Source of the DNA: Acidobacteriota bacterium
GTDB lineage: Bacteria; Acidobacteriota; Terriglobia; Terriglobales; SCQP01
Reading direction: 5' to 3'
Assembly: GCA_027451805.1 (NCBI GenBank)
Contig: DAIDIF010000291.1
Span: 1-32,901 of the forward strand
Length of the DNA stretch: 32,901 nt
Below, one piece after another: positions 18,094 through 26,347 of the stretch. A model generated the notes under the pieces. It saw only the letters and a list, made by a program, of their open reading frames with translations. It made no database searches and was not told the DNA's origin. The stretch's first letter is position 1, and each line of letters opens with the position of its first letter. A program made the translations under genes and the position numbers.

Positions 18094-18981
18094 TCAGGCG
18101 TGGGGCAGGCGGCGGCGGGAGGCGGCCAGGGCGAGACGGCTGGCGACGCTGATGATAAGCACGAAGAGCGTCACCAGCAGGGCGGCGGCGTAGGCGAGGG
18201 CGTGGGCCTCGGTGAAGGGCTCGGTGATGAACGCCCAAATCGCGTAGGTCAGGTAGCCGATGGGCTCGCGCACCAGGTGGCCGGTCCAGAGGTAGTTCGA
18301 CCAGCCGGCGGTGTAGAGCAGCGGCGCAGTCTCGCCGACGGAGATGGCCAACGCCAGCAGGATGCCGGTGAAGATGGCGGGCAAGGCCAGCGGCAGCGCG
18401 ATCGAAAAAATCACGCGATTGTCGCCCGCGCCCAAGGCGCGCGCGGCGTTGCGCAAATCCTGCGGCACCTGGCGGATGGCCAGCTCGCTGGAACGGCAGA
18501 TGTAGGGCAGCGAGATGATGGCCAGCGCGATGCTGCCGGCGGCGACGGAGAAGTTCCAGCCCAAATCCTCCACCGCCAGGATGTAGACGAAGTAACCCAC
18601 CACGATCGAGGGCAGGCCGACCATCACGTCGGCGAGGAAGCGGACCGTGGGCGCCCCCTTGCCCTGGCCGAATTCGGCGAGATAGATGCCGCAGGCCACG
18701 CCCAGCGGCACCGCCAGCAAAAGCCCGCCGAACGCCAGCACCAGCGTGCCCTCAATCGCATTCAGCAATCCGCCGCCGGTGCCCTGGGTGATCTCCGTGA
18801 GCAGGCCCCAATGCATCGCACCCATGCCGCGCCTGGCCACGCCCACCAGAATCGAGGTCATCGCCGCCGCGAGCACAAGAAAGGCGACGGTGCAGGCGGT
18901 CCAGCCCAGCAGATCCGTCAGGCGACGGCGCAGGCTCAGCCCCTGAGGTTTGCGGTTGAGCGGAGGCGCGGAGGCGGTCAT
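18094..18981 (-). CDS. pstA: Phosphate ABC transporter permease PstA
   Basis: PstA is one of two inner-membrane permease subunits of the high-affinity phosphate importer PstSCAB. The 295-residue protein has six TM helices. The binding-protein-dependent transport signature is seen in LRNAARALGAGDNRVIFSIALPLALPAIFTGILLALAISVGETAPLL, which contacts PstB. The GIYLAEFGQGK and DVMVGLPSIVVGYFVYIL stretches are also PstA-typical. I start at ATG 18981, 11 bases after the pstC stop. A longer in-frame version from 19077 would overlap pstC by 85 bases and add a 32-residue non-homologous leader. It is the last gene of the pst unit. Confidence 0.95.
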   Translation of the reverse strand: MTASAPPLNRKPQGLSLRRRLTDLLGWTACTVAFLVLAAAMTSILVGVARRGMGAMHWGLLTEITQGTGGGLLNAIEGTLVLAFGGLLLAVPLGVACGIYLAEFGQGKGAPTVRFLADVMVGLPSIVVGYFVYILAVEDLGWNFSVAAGSIALAIISLPYICRSSELAIRQVPQDLRNAARALGAGDNRVIFSIALPLALPAIFTGILLALAISVGETAPLLYTAGWSNYLWTGHLVREPIGYLTYAIWAFITEPFTEAHALAYAAALLVTLFVLIISVASRLALAASRRRLPHA

Positions 18982-18992
18982 GGGAAGCGCCG

Positions 18993-20042
18993 CTACGCCG
19001 GCCAGGCGGAAGAAATCCGGTCCTGCCAATACAGCAGCCCGCGCGCCAGACTGTTGACCACCACGGAAATCAGGCACAGCACCAAAGCCACCTCCGCCAG
19101 CGCCCGCACCGCCATGCCGGTGGGATCCTGCAGCGCGCCGTCGAGCTGGGAGACGATGAACGACGCCATGGTCGAAATCGGCGAATAGATGTTGGTAGGC
19201 AGGTAGTTCAGCGCGTTGCCGCTGATCATGAGCACCGCCATGGTTTCGCCCAAGGCGCGCCCGGTGGCCAGGATGGCGCTGCCGGTCATGGCGCGGCGCG
19301 TGCCCGGCAACTGCACCGTCCGCAGGGTTTCAAACCGGGTGGCGCCCAGCGCGAGGGCGGCGTCGCGCAACCCGTGGGGCTGCGCCACCAGGGCATCCCG
19401 CACCGTGCTGGTCACAAGCGGCACGATCATCAGCGCCAGCACCAGCCCCGAGGTCAGCAGGCCGTAGCCGCTGCCGGTGGCGCCGCCGAAGTACGGCAGG
19501 AAGCCAAGGTGCGCCGCCATCCAGGGAAAGACATGCCGGGCCAGGAAGGGGATGAGGAAAATATAGCCCCAGAGGCCGAACACGACGCTGGGGATCGCGG
19601 CCAGCATCTCCACGAAGAACGAGACCCAGGTGCGCAGCGCCGCCGGGATGCACTCAGCCAGAAAGATGGCCGCCAGCACGCCGATCGGCACGGCGAGCAC
19701 GACCGCGATGGCGGTGCTCAACAGCGTGCCCACGATCAAGAACAGAATGCCGTAATGCGCCCCCGGCAGCACCAGGCGTCCATCCCGCAGAATCGGGTTG
19801 CCGTATTGACGGCCCACGTCCCAAACGTCGTGGGTGAGAAAGTGCCAGCCATTCAGGCCGATGGCAGGCCACGCCTCCACCGCGAAAAACGCCACGATGG
19901 CCACCAGGATGGCCGCGACCAGGGCCGCCAGCGCCGCATAGACGCGGCGCATGGAACACCAGCGCCGCAGCCGGGAGCGCTGCCGCCGGAGCGGGGGCGG
20001 CGGCGGGGCGGGGGCGAAGACGGACTGCGAAGGCTCTGGCAC
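18993..20042 (-). CDS. pstC: Phosphate ABC transporter permease PstC
   Basis: PstC pairs with PstA to form the phosphate channel. The 349-residue protein has a Pro/Arg-rich cytoplasmic N-terminus (1-32), TM1 (about 35-55) and a periplasmic loop with NGWHFLTHDVWDVGRQYG. Five more helices follow. PstC signatures include IFLAECIPAALRTWVSFFVEMLAAIPSVVFGLWGYIFL and the coupling helix LRDAALALGATRFETLRTVQLPGTRRAMTGSAILATGRALGETMAVLMISGN. The start is GTG 20042, and ATG 19952 just before TM1 is an alternative. It lies 53 bases after pstS and 11 before pstA. Confidence 0.95.
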   Translation of the reverse strand: MPEPSQSVFAPAPPPPPLRRQRSRLRRWCSMRRVYAALAALVAAILVAIVAFFAVEAWPAIGLNGWHFLTHDVWDVGRQYGNPILRDGRLVLPGAHYGILFLIVGTLLSTAIAVVLAVPIGVLAAIFLAECIPAALRTWVSFFVEMLAAIPSVVFGLWGYIFLIPFLARHVFPWMAAHLGFLPYFGGATGSGYGLLTSGLVLALMIVPLVTSTVRDALVAQPHGLRDAALALGATRFETLRTVQLPGTRRAMTGSAILATGRALGETMAVLMISGNALNYLPTNIYSPISTMASFIVSQLDGALQDPTGMAVRALAEVALVLCLISVVVNSLARGLLYWQDRISSAWPA

Positions 20043-20095
20043 GGCGAGGCGCCGGCGGGGAGCGTGGTTGCGCTCGCCGCCGGGATGGCGAAGGT

Positions 20096-21169
20096 CTATT
20101 GTATCTGAGCGACTTGCGCCGCGCTCAGCCGCACGACCGGCGCCGGCAAGGCGACGAAATTGACCTGGTTCAAGAAATGCGGCGCGTTACCGCCGCTGGA
20201 GCTCATCGCCCAAGTGAAGAACTTGCGCATTGCGGCCGCGATCGCGGCCGAGGCCTGGCGCGAATTCACGATGGCGTATTCGTAGTTGATGATCGGGTAC
20301 GAGGTCGGCCCGGGCGCAAAGATCAGGCTGATGCGCTCATCCTTGGGGGTCTTGGCCACCATTTGGGCCGCCGCCGCCTTGGCGGTGGCCGAAGTCGGCA
20401 GGACGAACTGCCCCGCCCGGTTCTTCAAGGCCGCGATGCCCAAGCGGGCGCGGCGGATGGCCTGCTCGTAGCTGGTGCCGATATAGGCGATGGTGTAGGG
20501 GTTACCCTGGGTCGCGGTCACCATCCCCGGATTGCCCTCGGCGCCGAGTTCGCCGGGTACCGCCGGCCAGCTAATTGTCGTGCCGTAGCTGACGTTGTTG
20601 GACCACGACGGGGTGCTGAAGGAAAGGTACTGGGTAAAGATGAACGTGTCGCCGCTGCCGTCGGTGCGGTGGACCGGGATGATGGCGTGATGCGGCAGGC
20701 GGACGCCCGGGTTCATGGCCTGGATCTGCCCGTCGTCCCAGTAGCGGATGCTGCCGGAGTAGATGCCGGCGAGCACTGGGCCGCTCAGCTTCAGGTTGCG
20801 GCCGTTCAGCCCGGGCAAGTTGTAGTTGACCATTTGCATGGAAATGGCGAGCGGGATGTTGAGCATCCCCGGGTGCTGGCGCATCATCGCGTCGGCCATG
20901 TAGGCGTCGGAGGCGCCGATCTGGGCGATGCCGGCCACGGCGTCGGAGATGCCGGTGCCGCTGCCGGTGGACTGCGTGGTGATGCGGACCTCGGGCGCGA
21001 TGCGGTGATAGGCCGGCAGCCAGAGGTTGAACAGCGGATAGAGCAGGCTGGAGCCGGTTTCCAGCAGGTTGATGGTCTGGGCGGCGAGCGCGCCGGCGCA
21101 GGCCAAGGCCAGGCAGAAGATGGCGAGCCGCGCACCGCGGCGCTGCAGGATCGTGGCAAAAGGTTTCAT
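20096..21169 (-). CDS. pstS: Periplasmic phosphate-binding protein PstS
   Basis: PstS binds phosphate in the periplasm and delivers it to PstCA. The 357-residue protein starts with a signal peptide (MKPFATILQRRGARLAIFCLALACAGALAAQ). The mature N-terminus has the ligand-site pattern ETGSSLLYPLF and TQSTGSGTGISDAVAGIAQIGASDAYM, and later DGSGDTFIFTQYLS, in place of the E. coli SSG/TSGT-type loops. ATG 21169 is chosen because GGAG lies 10 bases upstream and the signal peptide fits. ATG 21178 and a longer frame from 21244 are less likely. It follows the porin gene by 157 bases, with two hairpins in that gap. Confidence 0.94.
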   Translation of the reverse strand: MKPFATILQRRGARLAIFCLALACAGALAAQTINLLETGSSLLYPLFNLWLPAYHRIAPEVRITTQSTGSGTGISDAVAGIAQIGASDAYMADAMMRQHPGMLNIPLAISMQMVNYNLPGLNGRNLKLSGPVLAGIYSGSIRYWDDGQIQAMNPGVRLPHHAIIPVHRTDGSGDTFIFTQYLSFSTPSWSNNVSYGTTISWPAVPGELGAEGNPGMVTATQGNPYTIAYIGTSYEQAIRRARLGIAALKNRAGQFVLPTSATAKAAAAQMVAKTPKDERISLIFAPGPTSYPIINYEYAIVNSRQASAAIAAAMRKFFTWAMSSSGGNAPHFLNQVNFVALPAPVVRLSAAQVAQIQ

Positions 21170-21292
21170 GTCGCGCATTCTCCGTATTCCGAAAGGGGAT
21201 ATTGGGGATCGTCGGTCTTGGTTATCGCACAGCAGCGCAGCCATAGCATTTCACAGGCATGGCCGCAGAGTGGTTACAACTCGCGCACAAGC

Positions 21293-21327
21293 CTCCCGAC
21301 GGGGAGAGCCCTGGCGCCGGCCGGCGC
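21293..21327 (-). other. Hairpins in the porin-pstS gap
   Basis: A perfect 14-bp palindrome GCGCCGGCCGGCGC (21314-21327) touches the porin stop. It is followed on the minus strand by a stem CTCCC-CGTC-GGGAG (21306-21293). Neither is followed by a U tract, so they are not classic terminators. They could protect the porin mRNA 3' end or reduce read-through into pstS. Confidence 0.4.
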
Positions 21328-22685
21328 TAGGGCAGCGTGTAGCGCAAGTCGGCAAAGGCCATGCCGGTGTGGGCGTTCCTGGGAGCGCCGGCGGCCACGG
21401 CGAAGGGGCTGCGGGTCACATATGACGCCTGGGTGATCAGCGCCAGAGACCCGTAATTGTTGGATTTCCAAAAGGTGTGGGTGATGCCCAGCGTGGCCTC
21501 CTGGAGGGAGCGGTTCATGCTTGCCGGCGCGCCGGGATAACCGTAGCCCACCGGCGTGGCGCCGGAGAGATCGAAGTTGGGATGGATATAGATGCCGCCA
21601 TAGTAGCCGTAGAACAGATAGCCGGGGTTGATCTGGTCCTCGAAGCCGAGAATGGCGCTCGTGGTGCGCAGCGGCGAAACCGTGCCGTTCTGGCGGACGA
21701 CGACGTCGGGCGCGATGCCGAAGAGATAGCGCCCACCGCCGTCGCCCCAGAAGGTGTTGGCGATCAAGCGCAGGCCGGGGGCGACCATCAGGGCGCCATC
21801 GGCGGCGATGCCCCCGCCGGCGGTGTGATCGACGACGCCGGTGGCGGGATTGAGCGCGCGAAACTCGCTCTCGAGGCCAGCCACCTCGAGGTGCAAGCCG
21901 TCGCCGTTGGGCTGGGAGTCGTAGGCAGCTTTGAGGATGAAATCGGGGGTGAACCCGGGAGCGGAAAGGTTGGAGCCGCCGTTGTTGAACTGGCCGGCGT
22001 AGGGGCCGCTGGCCCCGCCGGGCAGCGTCGCCGGCGCGGCGCCGGCGCTGCCGCCGATGTAGGGCTCGCCCTGCTCGATGGATAACCCGGCGGTGAACTG
22101 GGGCGAGGCATGGAACAGGACCCGCAACTGCGGCTGCCGCGCCCAGGTGAGGCCGAGCTGGTAGTTGGTGTCCATGGCATCGCTGAAGAAGATGTTGGCG
22201 GGCATGGGCGAGAGCCCGACGCGGTTGGGGGTGAGCAGGCTCCAGTCCTGGCCGGCCAGAACCTCCCACTTGCCGTAGAGGGCGTCGAGGAAGTAGACGC
22301 GCATCCGCAGCGTGTTGCTGTTGCTCGAGACCGCGACGTTGGCGGGGGCGTTGCCGAGAAAGTCGGCTTCGAGATAGCCGGTCAGGTCGGCCCCATCTTT
22401 GCTGCCGCTCACCTGCAAGGCGAGGCGCGAGTTCTGCGCGCTCTCGCGAAACTCGCTGAGCCGGCCGGCGGCGACGTCGTTGTAGGGGATGGCGGCGAAG
22501 TTGGTGCCGATGCCGCTGCCTACCGCGGTGGAGCGGTACATGGCGGTGAAATCCATGAACCCGCCCGGGGTGAACTGCATGCCGCCGATCTGGAACGAGA
22601 GCGGACTGCCGGAGCCGCTCTGCGCGGCCAGCACGGCGGCCAGCACGAGACCTGCGCCAAGGATGCGACCAATCTTGCCTGTCAT
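21327..22685 (-). CDS. Outer-membrane porin-like beta-barrel protein, probably phosphate-regulated
   Basis: This 452-residue protein has a signal peptide (MTGKIGRILGAGLVLAAVLAAQS). Many alternating hydrophobic/aromatic strands follow, as in DcaP-like trimeric porins: an N-terminal GGMQFTPGGFMDFTAMYRSTAVG, then RLALQVSGSKDGADLTGYLEADFLG, VYFLDALYGKWEVLAGQDWSLLTPNR and NYQLGLTWARQPQLRVLFHASP. The final strand, AFADLRYTLP, is C-terminal as barrel assembly needs, although the last residue is Pro rather than an aromatic. It lies first in the minus-strand unit before pstSCA, and an exact Pho box sits 83 bases before its start. I infer a role in phosphate or organophosphate entry across the outer membrane. 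Selectivity cannot be read from the sequence. Confidence 0.78.
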   Translation of the reverse strand: MTGKIGRILGAGLVLAAVLAAQSGSGSPLSFQIGGMQFTPGGFMDFTAMYRSTAVGSGIGTNFAAIPYNDVAAGRLSEFRESAQNSRLALQVSGSKDGADLTGYLEADFLGNAPANVAVSSNSNTLRMRVYFLDALYGKWEVLAGQDWSLLTPNRVGLSPMPANIFFSDAMDTNYQLGLTWARQPQLRVLFHASPQFTAGLSIEQGEPYIGGSAGAAPATLPGGASGPYAGQFNNGGSNLSAPGFTPDFILKAAYDSQPNGDGLHLEVAGLESEFRALNPATGVVDHTAGGGIAADGALMVAPGLRLIANTFWGDGGGRYLFGIAPDVVVRQNGTVSPLRTTSAILGFEDQINPGYLFYGYYGGIYIHPNFDLSGATPVGYGYPGAPASMNRSLQEATLGITHTFWKSNNYGSLALITQASYVTRSPFAVAAGAPRNAHTGMAFADLRYTLP

Positions 22686-22720
22686 GCCCCCATGATCACC
22701 GCCGAATGGCGGTGGGCGCG

Positions 22721-22738
22721 GTTACGCTTCGGTTACAG
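22721..22738 (-). promoter_or_regulatory. Second, weaker Pho-box-like repeat
   Basis: On the minus strand CTGTAAC-CGAA-GCGTAAC repeats GTAAC at 11-bp spacing and has the same CGAA spacer as the strong box 48 bp away. It matches the CTGTCAT consensus at 8 of 14 positions. It lies between the strong box and the porin start. Confidence 0.4.
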
Positions 22739-22768
22739 CCGGGGGGCGCGGGAGAAGCGGCGCGCGGG

Positions 22769-22786
22769 ATGACAGTTCGATGACAG
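22769..22786 (-). promoter_or_regulatory. Pho box (PhoB binding site) facing the porin-pst unit
   Basis: On the minus strand the site reads CTGTCAT-CGAA-CTGTCAT, two exact 7-bp repeats with a 4-bp spacer. This is the E. coli Pho box consensus in all 14 repeat positions. It is 83 bases before the porin ATG and 96 bases before phoR, in the shared control region. The phoB gene is in the same window. Confidence 0.85.
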
Positions 22787-22822
22787 CGCCCCGCGGCGGC
22801 GGGAGCGCTTGCGTCCCTGCCG

Positions 22823-22828
22823 CATACT
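22823..22828 (+). promoter_or_regulatory. -10-like box (CATACT) upstream of phoR
   Basis: CATACT ends 6 bases before the ATG of a small leader ORF (22835), the same spacing seen before other starts in the window. No clear -35 is seen. Confidence 0.3.
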
Positions 22829-22834
22829 AGAGGC

Positions 22835-22885
22835 ATGCCTATGGCCCGGTCCGGGGCGCGCCAGCGCGCGGACCGTCCGATATGA
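22835..22885 (+). CDS. Possible leader ORF coupled to phoR
   Basis: A 16-codon frame ([16 protein letters not shown]) ends in TGA that overlaps the phoR ATG as ATGA. AGAGG lies 7 bases before its second ATG (22841). The first ATG is 6 bases after CATACT. It may serve translational coupling. It could equally be chance in high-GC DNA. Confidence 0.3.
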   Translation: MPMARSGARQRADRPI

Positions 22886-24081
22886 GCCTGACCATGAGCT
22901 GGATGCGCCGCGCCACCGCCGCTCCCACCGCCGCTGCCGGAGCGCCGGCGCCGAACGATGGGGGACGCGTGCAGGCGGCGCTGGCGGCGCTGCAAGCGGC
23001 GGTGGCCTGCCTCGACACCGCGATCCTGGTGGTGGACCGGGAGCTGCGCGTGGTCGCCTCCAACCCGGCCGCGGACCGTCTCTGGTCGCTGGCCGAGCCC
23101 GCGCCAGGACTGCCGCCGCGCGCGACCGGGCTGGCGCGCCTGCCGGAGGCGCGCGACGCGGTGCAAGCGATGGTCGCCGGCGACGCCGCCGCGGCGGCGG
23201 GCGGATGGCGGCGCCGGCTGCGCACGCCCGACGGCCGCACCCTCGATGTGGCGATCCATCGTCTTCCCACGGGCGAGGGCCTGGTTGCCGCGCGCGACGT
23301 GAGCGAAAGCGTGCGGCTGGAAACCTCGCGCCGCGACTTCGTGGCCGCGCTCTCGCACGAGCTACGCACGCCGCTGACCTCAATTCAGGGTTACGCCGAG
23401 ATGCTGCAGGACGCCGGCCTGCCCGGCCCGCTGCGCGCCGAGAGCCTGGAGGTGATCCTGCAGAACACGGCGCGGCTCAGCCGTCTGGCGCAGGATCTGG
23501 TGACGCTCTCCTCGCTCGAAACCGGGGCCTATCCGTTCCGCTTCGAGCGGCTGGAGGTGGCCACCCTGGCCCGCCCGGCGCTGGCGGTGGTGGCGCCGCT
23601 GGCGCTGGAGCACGGCTGCGAGTTGCGGGAGGAGACGCTGGAGCCGGCCACCCTCCGCGGCGACCGCGACGCGCTGCACCGGGTGCTGCTGAATCTGCTG
23701 GAAAACGCCATCCTCCACGGCCGCCCGCCGGCCGCCTCCGGCGTGACGCCGTCGGTGACGCTTAGCGGCCGGCGCGAGGGCGGGGATTACGTGCTGCGGG
23801 TGCGCGATAATGGACCAGGCATCGGCTCCGCCGATCAGCCCCGTGTGTTCGAACGCTTCTACCAGATCGGAGTGGGCCACACGCATATCCCGGGGGCGCC
23901 GCGCCGCGGCACCGGCCTGGGCCTGGCGGTGGTGAAGCACATCGTGCGCGAACACGGCGGCGAGGCCGGCCTGCAAAGCGCCCTGGGGGAAGGAAGCACC
24001 TTCCTGGTGCGCCTGCCGTTGCAGGAAGAAAACCACGCCGCCGGGCGGGCGGGCGGCGCACACGACGGGTCCGCGGCATGA
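22882..24081 (+). CDS. phoR: PhoR-like sensor histidine kinase without membrane helices
   Basis: This 399-residue kinase is predicted to sense PstSCAB/PhoU state and to phosphorylate PhoB. A short Ala-rich head (1-30) precedes a PAS domain (about 35-145, with [25 protein letters not shown]). The HisKA helix has [23 protein letters not shown] with phospho-acceptor H159. The HATPase domain has the N box [12 protein letters not shown], the G1 box VRDNGPGIG and the G2 box [13 protein letters not shown]. Unlike most PhoR proteins, no N-terminal TM helix is present, so it is probably cytoplasmic and tied to the membrane only through PhoU or the Pst complex. A short [10 protein letters not shown] insert sits before the G2 box. 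The ATG overlaps a leader ORF stop, and the stop overlaps pstB by 4 bases. Confidence 0.88.
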
Positions 24082-24914
24082 CGCCCGGGAACACCATTCT
24101 CAACCGCCCTCTCGCCGCGCCCAAGCCCGCCGCGGCGCCGGCGCCGGCGCCCGCCACCCGGGTGGTGATCGAAGCGCGCAACGTCGATTTCTTTTATCAC
24201 GCCCACCAGGTGCTGTTCGGGGTCTCGCTCGAGGTCCGGCAGAACGAAATTCTGGCGCTGATCGGGCCCTCGGGCTGCGGCAAGAGCACCTTCCTGCGCA
24301 GCCTGAACCGGATGAACGACCTGATCGCCGGCGCCCGGCTGCGGGGCAGCCTGCGGATTGACGGCGAGGACATCTACGCCCCCGGCTCCGATGTCATTGC
24401 CCTGCGCCGCCGCGTGGGCATGGTGTTCCAACGGTCCAACCCCTTCCCCTTCTCGATCGAGGAAAACGTCACCTTCGGGTTGCGCGCCAACCGGCTGGCC
24501 CGCCGCCCCGGCGAACGGGTGGCGGTGGTCGAGCGCAGCCTGCGCGCCGCCGGCCTGTGGGAGGAAGGGAAGGACCGCCTGAAGAAGCCGGCGCTGGCGC
24601 TCTCCGGCGGCCAGCAGCAGCGGCTGTGCATCGCCCGCGCGCTCGCCATCGAGCCGGAAATCCTGCTCATGGACGAGCCCGCGAGCGCGCTCGACCCGAT
24701 CGCCACGGCCCGGATCGAGGAGTTGGCGCTGGAGCTCAAACAGCGCTACACCCTGGTCATCGTCACGCATAACCTGCAGCAGGCGGCCCGCATCAGCGAC
24801 CGCACCAGCTTCTTCCTCATGGGCCGCGTCATCGAGACCGCGCCCACCCAGCAGATGTTCACGCATCCCGCGGTGCAGGAGACCGAAGATTATATTACCG
24901 GCCGGTTCGGGTAG
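24078..24914 (+). CDS. pstB: Phosphate ABC transporter ATPase PstB
   Basis: PstB is the ATPase of the phosphate importer. It has 278 residues. The first 28 form an Ala/Pro-rich extension not usual in PstB. Walker A is GPSGCGKST (63-71), followed by the PstB-specific [12 protein letters not shown]. The Q-loop is [23 protein letters not shown], the signature is [16 protein letters not shown], Walker B is [13 protein letters not shown] and the H-loop is [20 protein letters not shown]. The C-terminal [11 protein letters not shown] is the common PstB ending. It is encoded apart from pstSCA, on the opposite strand between phoR (ATGA overlap) and phoU (16-bp gap). Confidence 0.96.
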
Positions 24915-24930
24915 GAGCGTCTAACGTCGT

Positions 24931-25638
24931 ATGGAAACTGCCCCGGTTCGCAAACATTTCAAAGAAGAGCTCGAGGATCTGCGCGAGCGCGTCATTTACA
25001 TGGGCGGTCTGGTCGAGACCGCCATCCACCGCAGCCTGGAGTCAGTGCTGCAGCGCGACCCGGAACTCGCCGAAGCCGTGACCGGCGAGCTCGAGCCGGA
25101 GATCAACCGCCTTCAGGTGGAGGTGGACGAGCGCGCCCTGCGGCTCATGGCGCTGCAACAGCCGCTGGCCATGGACCTGCGCTTCATCGCCGCCGTGCTC
25201 AAGATCGGCAACGACCTGGAGCGCATGGCCGATCTGGCGGTGAACATCGCCCAGGGCGCGTCGCACCTGATCGAGCTACCGCTGGCTTCGCTGCGCGTCG
25301 ATCTGCCGTTGATGGCCGAGCGCGCGGGCAAGATGCTGCGCGCCGCGCTCGACGCCTTCATGACCCGCGACGCCGAGCTGGCGCGCACGGTGCTGGTGGC
25401 CGACGAGGAGGTGGACAATCTGCGCGACCTCATCTATCGCCAGCTCATCCGCTCCATGGTGGCCGATTCACGCGAGGTCGAGCGCAGCCTGGCGCTGATG
25501 TTCGTCGCCCGCAATCTGGAGCGCATCGCCGACCACGCCACCAACATCGCCGAAGACGTCATCTTTTGGGTCGAAGGGGTGGACGTTCGGCACCACTTCG
25601 CCGAAACCAAGCCCCCCGCCGCCCCCAACCCCGCGTGA
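24931..25638 (+). CDS. phoU: Phosphate signalling protein PhoU
   Basis: PhoU is a peripheral helical protein that represses the Pho response by linking PstB/PstSCA to PhoR. The 235-residue length is normal. Two three-helix repeats are seen. Repeat 1 has LRERVIYMGGLVETAIHRSLESVLQRDPELA and MALQQPLAMDLRFIAAVLKIGNDLERMADLAVNIA. Repeat 2 has AGKMLRAALDAFMTRDAELARTVLVADEEVD and ALMFVARNLERIADHATNIAEDVIFWVEG. The E/DxxxD metal-cluster residues of each repeat are kept (NDLERMAD and RNLERIAD). The gene lies between pstB and phoB with short gaps, in one operon. Confidence 0.96.
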   Translation: METAPVRKHFKEELEDLRERVIYMGGLVETAIHRSLESVLQRDPELAEAVTGELEPEINRLQVEVDERALRLMALQQPLAMDLRFIAAVLKIGNDLERMADLAVNIAQGASHLIELPLASLRVDLPLMAERAGKMLRAALDAFMTRDAELARTVLVADEEVDNLRDLIYRQLIRSMVADSREVERSLALMFVARNLERIADHATNIAEDVIFWVEGVDVRHHFAETKPPAAPNPA

Positions 25639-25645
25639 CTCCTTG

Positions 25646-26347
25646 ATGAACGCCCGCCCCCGCATCCTGCTGGTCGAGGACGATCCCCACGTCAGCCGCC
25701 TGGTCGCGACCCAACTGGAGAGCGAGGGCTTCGCGGTCACCCTCAACGCCACCGGCGGCGGATTCCTGGAGCAACTGGAGGAGATCGAGCCGCGGCTGGT
25801 GATTCTCGATCTCATGCTGCCGCTGGCGCACGGCTTCGAGCTCCTGCGCCGCCTGCGCCAGCATCCCCGCTTTGGGCGCACGCCGGTGCTGGTGCTCACC
25901 GCCCTGGGGGATGAGAGCGACCGCATCCACGGCCTCGACCTGGGCGCCGACGACTACGTGCACAAGCCCTTCAGCGCGCGCGAACTGGCGGCGCGCGTGC
26001 GCGCCCGGCTGCGCGGGGCGCCCGAAGGCGCTCCCGCCAAGCTGGCCGCCGCCGGCCTCGAACTCGATCTCAAAGCCCGCACCGCCCAGGCCGCCGGCCG
26101 GCCGCTGGCGCTCAGCGACACCGAGTACCGCCTGCTCGCCTTCTTTCTCAAGTCCCCCGGCACCGCCTTCACCCGCCGCCAGATCGTCGCCGGCGTCTGG
26201 TCGCCGCAGCATTACATCACCGACCGCGCGGTCGATGTCCACATCCTGCGCCTGCGCCAGAAGATCGAAGAGAACCCCGAACAACCGCGCCGCGTGGTCG
26301 CGGTGCGCGGGGTGGGCTATCGCCTCGACAACGACGCCTCCGCCTGA
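25646..26347 (+). CDS. phoB: PhoB-like OmpR-family response regulator
   Basis: This 233-residue response regulator is predicted to activate Pho genes after phosphorylation by PhoR. The receiver (1-120) has the acidic pair in LLVEDD, phospho-acceptor D55 in LVILDLMLPL, T85 and K107 in VHKPFS. The OmpR/PhoB winged-helix domain (about 130-230) has LSDTEYRLLAFFLKSPGTAFTRRQI. Its recognition helix ITDRAVDVHILRLRQKIEE is close to that of E. coli PhoB, which suits the exact E. coli-type Pho box found at 22769. ATG 25646 is preferred to TTG 25643, and the gap from phoU is 7 bases. Confidence 0.93.
   Translation: MNARPRILLVEDDPHVSRLVATQLESEGFAVTLNATGGGFLEQLEEIEPRLVILDLMLPLAHGFELLRRLRQHPRFGRTPVLVLTALGDESDRIHGLDLGADDYVHKPFSARELAARVRARLRGAPEGAPAKLAAAGLELDLKARTAQAAGRPLALSDTEYRLLAFFLKSPGTAFTRRQIVAGVWSPQHYITDRAVDVHILRLRQKIEENPEQPRRVVAVRGVGYRLDNDASA

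Follow-up and report, generated by a model that had tools for sequence, protein, structure and literature searches.

A DcaP-fold porin at the head of a pstSCA cluster: a candidate phosphate-starvation channel in Acidobacteriota

The window, which is the whole stretch of DNA analysed here (32,901 nucleotides from an Acidobacteriota bacterium), is contig C291 of a draft genome of 3.16 Mb in 305 contigs that is 95.4% complete. On its minus strand, genes for a porin, PstS, PstC and PstA follow one another with the porin first (Table 1), and this order, claimed by the first-pass annotation, is borne out by the open reading frames and their NCBIfam matches. A divergent phoR-pstB-phoU-phoB unit on the plus strand (22882-26347), absent from that annotation, completes the locus. 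PstS, PstC, PstA and PstB of the Pst importer all exceed the curated NCBIfam cut-offs, and PstS has one match only in the whole genome. For the phoR and phoB products, PhoR and PhoB are the best NCBIfam matches, but both stay below the cut-offs. The true start of pstS is probably somewhat downstream of 21244. A search for sigma-70-like promoters in 20000-23000 found none, and no terminator-like site was found in the gap between the porin gene and pstS. The PhoR-like kinase begins almost at its PAS domain, has its best hydrophobic 19-mer at the PAS start and shows no clear membrane anchor.

Table 1. Genes and candidate regulatory sites of the porin-pst locus (positions in the window)
Feature	Position	Strand	Remarks
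Porin, DcaP fold, 452 aa	21327..22685	-	Signal-peptide-like start; without N-terminal coiled coil
pstS (TIGR00975)	20096..21244	-	336 bits vs NCBIfam equivalog cut-off 205
pstC (TIGR02138)	18993..20042	-	269 bits vs NCBIfam equivalog cut-off 196
pstA (TIGR00974)	18094..19077	-	214 bits vs cut-off 193; overlaps the end of pstC
phoR-like histidine kinase (PAS, HisKA, HATPase)	22882..24081	+	TIGR02966, 220.5 bits, below cut-off 334.2
pstB (TIGR00972)	24078..24914	+	Above NCBIfam cut-off
phoU (TIGR02135)	24931..25638	+	Above NCBIfam cut-off
phoB-like response regulator	25643..26347	+	TIGR02154, 213 bits, below cut-off 296.2, yet best match
Pho box, CTGTCAT-CGAA-CTGTCAT (CTGTCATCGAACTGTCAT)	22786..22769	-	Exact; faces the porin, ends 83 bp before the ATG
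Weaker repeat, CTGTAAC-CGAA-GCGTAAC	22738..22721	-	12/14 to relaxed consensus; faces the porin, ends 35 bp before the ATG

The intergenic region between the porin gene and phoR is 196 bp long and holds both repeats. Two exact CTGTCAT repeats facing the porin and a weaker repeat with the same CGAA spacer between them and the gene had been described at first pass, and both are present as described. The exact pattern occurs as a single copy in the 3.16-Mb assembly, for which base composition predicts about 0.003 copies genome-wide and 1.5e-7 within the intergenic region; with up to three mismatches it was found at 32 places genome-wide, versus 13 for a reversed control. No good box was found facing phoR (best site 10/14), nor between the porin gene and pstS in the window (best site 10/14).

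In a Pfam search, the porin matched DcaP (PF19577) only, with an E value of 0.064 and 12.7 bits, below the gathering cut-off of 27, and an NCBIfam search gave no match. Weak matches to PF19577 (E up to 1; best 0.0016) were also obtained for 25 of 60 family rows. The Porin_O_P profile (PF07396, OprP/OprO) had no match to the porin at E up to 1, in agreement with the earlier statement that it is not obviously OprP; the same profile found nothing in the porin's own genome and matched in two of 14 control genomes. Searching PDB sequences with the porin gave matches at chance level, and a profile of 60 relatives reached DcaP (6EUS) at E 0.015 with a best stretch of 1.3, which is not confident; in this weak alignment, R87, E106, D108, R127 and R129 are the same letters in 6EUS. 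The AlphaFold model, computed from a 60-row alignment, has a mean pLDDT of 87.8 and 16 strands of at least eight residues. Foldseek placed 6EUS first (E 2.8e-20, target TM 0.86; next match E 1.0e-12), and a second structure aligner superposed 343 of 346 residues on it (Z 35.2, rmsd 2.3; next entry Z 24.2). OprP was not among the structure matches listed by either aligner, which excludes nothing. The label 'DcaP-like' given at first pass thus stands at the level of fold and not by sequence, where the match is sub-threshold: as modelled, the porin is a DcaP-fold barrel that lies, by score, outside the curated DcaP family.

Invariant or nearly invariant arginines (R87, R127, R129, R155, R183, R188, R319, R392, R425 and R448) leave an anion site possible. 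The mature chain, for which cleavage was assumed after residue 22, contains 18 Arg and 4 Lys against 19 Asp and 11 Glu, and inward-facing residues, guessed from strand alternation, are not net positive in a crude count (family mean 13.8 basic versus 16.0 acidic). OprP is described as having 47 Arg and Lys, an eight-Arg ladder and a nine-Lys cluster (PMC5877670). The first-pass annotation had suggested looking for a basic ladder in the pore; with only 22 Arg and Lys in the mature chain, an OprP-like one is not supported.

The nearest named relatives of the porin belong to Acidobacteriota, and 183 of 299 genomes of the class contain a match with an E value of at most 1e-3, a count that takes in distant paralogs. 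A contig scan found 164 relatives, of which the best 80 were kept as loci. Within these best 80 of 164, the porin lies directly before pstS in 35 loci, so the gene order of the window recurs; six other loci have pst or phoU elsewhere, 18 have none and 21 are too short to classify. A tree was computed for 92 rows, comprising 82 family members and 10 chosen distant paralogs, and linkage was scored in the 57 family members of known surroundings, with 25 left out. Genes for PstS, PstC or PstA occur within 3.5 kb in 41 of these 57 members, and the 10 chosen distant paralogs are all away from them. The linkage label changes 12 times on the tree, versus 20.9 times when shuffled. The remaining 16 of the 57 have no pstS, pstC or pstA nearby, and they include Acidobacteriaceae loci, three Verrucomicrobiota and L149, which still adjoins phoR-pstB-phoU-phoB. 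In the nearest relative, L142, an 81% identical porin sits between BrkB-like and aminotransferase genes, and no pst match was found on its 11.7-kb contig. The Verrucomicrobiota MAGs with the porin are L192, L207 and L213; in the first two, there is no pst nearby, and the porin gene diverges from a pair of two-component genes that are 34-37% identical to phoB/phoR.

Pho boxes were sought in the 300 bp upstream of 78 porins, taken from heuristic signal-peptide-like starts, and the best score out of 14 was recorded; three of 81 porins were left out, having less than 150 bp of upstream DNA. The consensus used derives from the E. coli Pho box and from the window, so that other box variants would be missed. 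A score of at least 12 was reached upstream of 26 of the 78 porins on the coding strand versus two of 78 on the opposite strand and 0.38% of 1560 shuffles, and a score of at least 13 upstream of 11 porins versus none of the 1560 shuffles. The box thus recurs in the relatives; the 26 boxed porins are not independent, because near-copies occur among the rows (L160/L166/L172 and L184/L191). The other 52 porins have no upstream box at 12/14. By class, boxes of at least 12 precede 14 of 35 porins next to pstS (window included), none of six with other pst genes, seven of 18 without pst and five of 19 in loci too short to classify. L142, although without pst, carries CTGTAATCGAACTGTAAT just upstream of its porin. 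Elsewhere a clear box falls between the porin and pstS matches (L186, L217 and L220), between the porin and pstB (L169), before pstC (L162), upstream of phoB (L156) or upstream of phoU (L204). The first-pass suggestion that the porin is wired directly to the Pst importer therefore has to be qualified, given the 16 of 57 unlinked members and the boxes kept in seven of the 18 loci without pst. The combination named there as refuting, unrelated neighbours and a missing box, was found in 11 of those 18 loci, not in the family as a whole. The porin looks like a putative member of the Pho regulon in its own right, usually sitting with pst.

For the genome as a whole, a relaxed motif was used (CTGTMAY-N4-CTGTMAY). 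Within two mismatches it occurs at 34 places genome-wide versus 30 for a reversed-pattern control, and weak sites by themselves therefore mean little. Without mismatch it occurs at three places: in the window, on C94 and on C115. The C94 site precedes a PF04185 phosphoesterase gene (L102, 6238-8016), an association consistent with a Pho regulon; immediately upstream of this gene is one for a TonB-dependent receptor. The C115 site, which a further half-site overlaps, precedes an OPT oligopeptide-transporter gene (L101, 9234-11596).

The window and its closest relatives differ from the wider family in two respects. On the one hand, an N-terminal extension was counted in 72 relatives, with a length of 49-187 aa and a median of 131.5 (eight of the 80 loci and the window left out); it looks heptad-like by eye in most relatives inspected and forms a 44-residue helix in a model of the KBS 96 relative (mean pLDDT 72.7), an isolate whose porin, at locus L159, is not pst-linked. 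DcaP itself has an N-terminal coiled coil (PMC12338516). The extension is absent from the window porin (region 22610-22685), L142-L145 and L061, that is, from the window's own clade, and the coiled coil with which porins of the relatives typically begin has been lost in the window lineage. On the other hand, the window pstS, pstC and pstA share 62-72% identity with their counterparts in L162, L193 and L218 and 33-44% with those in the near relatives (L061, L143, L144 and L145), with which the window porin, phoR, pstB, phoU and phoB group. A PstS tree puts the window with seven distant rows, in a starred set, and a PstB tree puts it closest to the near relatives. Judged from these identities, the window locus is a mosaic, with a pstSCA type (18094-21244) that differs from that of its nearest relatives. 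Both types of PstS occur next to the porin in L162, so the mosaic could have arisen by replacement or by differential loss. In the near relatives, pstC-pstA-phoR-pstB-phoU-phoB is divergent from porin-pstS.

Combined with the above analysis, we consider it fairly probable that the porin is a phosphate-starvation channel of DcaP fold, encoded by the first gene of a PhoB-activated porin-pstS-pstC-pstA unit. With phosphate in short supply, PhoR would phosphorylate PhoB; PhoB would then attach to the direct repeats at 22769-22786, with the pair at 22721-22738 assisting, and a single transcript would supply the porin, PstS and PstCA together as one import route. The porin would let phosphate-type anions across the outer membrane, PstS would catch phosphate in the periplasm, and PstCA, together with PstB from the divergent unit, would import it. 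We counted in favour of such a unit the gene order, the unique exact box, the lack of a terminator-like site before pstS, the recurrence of order and boxes in relatives and the motif site at the phosphoesterase gene. The DcaP fold was counted on the same side, because the DcaP porin family is described as having affinity for anions (PMC12338516). Counted against were the 16 of 57 unlinked members, the 52 of 78 porins without a box, the displaced boxes, the OprP-unlike composition, charges that are not net positive, the scores of phoB and phoR below the NCBIfam cut-offs and the lack of a sigma-70-like promoter in 20000-23000. That PhoB binds, that the genes are co-transcribed and induced, and that phosphate is the main cargo are all steps that we infer; the weakest step of the argument leads from induction under low phosphate to the passage of phosphate.

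It is at this step that the main rival arises, with the same regulation and a different cargo. Here the porin would be Pho-regulated but form a broad pore for anions, organophosphates or carboxylates, whose induction raises the anion permeability of the outer membrane in phosphate starvation. The fold and, in the weak alignment, the R87/E106/D108/R127/R129 cluster are common to carboxylate-linked DcaP, the porin lacks an OprP-like richness in Lys and Arg, and the phosphoesterase gene behind its zero-mismatch motif could supply phosphoester products in the same genome. However, the close linkage across the family is to pstS and not to phosphoester or carboxylate genes, and no dca-type neighbours were identified in the loci examined, where neighbours were inspected unsystematically; we regard the broad pore as unlikely. 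In a different view, the divergent phoR-pstB-phoU-phoB unit is the main target of the box, and the porin is expressed independently of phosphate. Phosphate sensors are often autoregulated, and the box lies within the shared 196-bp region; however, both repeats point to the porin, the best site towards phoR scores only 10/14, and boxes are also found upstream of porins whose loci lack a divergent pho unit, such as L142, L188 and L198; we regard this view as very improbable. A chance match is scarcely credible: with three mismatches allowed, the window has two matches, a number that 30 of 100 shuffles also attain and that chance alone would account for, but the site is exact and unique where about 0.003 copies are expected in the genome, and boxes recur upstream of related porins.

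Going beyond the window, we would give about even weight to a wider form of the phosphate-starvation reading, in which Acidobacteriota, along with a few Verrucomicrobiota, possess a phosphate-starvation porin family of their own that uses the DcaP scaffold and is independent of both OprP/OprO and PhoE. Such porins would belong to the Pho regulon in their own right, lie near pst in most lineages and conduct phosphate without an OprP-style lysine sink, and the window lineage would have lost the coiled coil and exchanged its pstSCA.

PhoE and OprP are textbook examples of porins under Pho control. PhoE of E. coli is a 16-strand porin under Pho-box control, and phoE is not known to belong to the pst operon; its structure, which we take to be 1PHO, aligns to the window porin model at Z 23.4, whereas the window porin has no Pfam match to a classical porin family. 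OprO of Xanthomonas presumably belongs to the Porin_O_P family, unlike the window porin, which has no match to that family and a DcaP fold. According to PMC8220824, the genes of the OprO-PhoX-PstSCAB-PhoU cluster of Xanthomonas oryzae rise together, and a porin gene heads the pst cluster there as in the window, where, by contrast, pstB and phoU sit in a divergent unit. With Pseudomonas OprP/OprO, the window porin has in common its proposed job, phosphate passage under starvation; it differs in the lack of a profile match, in having 22 versus 47 Arg and Lys and in its four Lys in total against a nine-Lys cluster, the OprP values being those of PMC5877670. Acinetobacter DcaP (6EUS) is the nearest fold by a wide margin, and most relatives of the window porin are extended at the N terminus by a stretch that is helical in one model and recalls the DcaP coiled coil (PMC12338516); however, identity is 17-18%, the window porin is below the Pfam cut-off and lacks the extension, and its neighbours are pst/pho and not dca genes.

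A porin heading a pst cluster is thus already known from Xanthomonas OprO (PMC8220824), and what differs here is the family of the fold, the breadth of the link in Acidobacteriota and the presence of boxes at porins that lie away from pst. In the open-access literature, we found no report of a pst-linked DcaP-type porin and none of an acidobacterial DcaP-type porin tied to phosphate uptake. Acidobacteria are common in phosphate-poor soils. Gene order and box together offer a concrete candidate family in which to study how a carboxylate-porin scaffold would handle phosphate, with natural variants that do or do not have the coiled coil and the pst linkage; if true, another porin family would have been recruited to the job of OprP and PhoE.

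Two further places in the genome, on C91 and C130, matched the relaxed motif with one mismatch. The C130 place was rejected as a regulon site, since no plausible gene follows it on the same strand. On C91, two Pho-like sites 26 bp apart precede a TonB-dependent-receptor-like gene (L121, 3-1436), labelled as such by eye from its likeness to a PF00593 protein.
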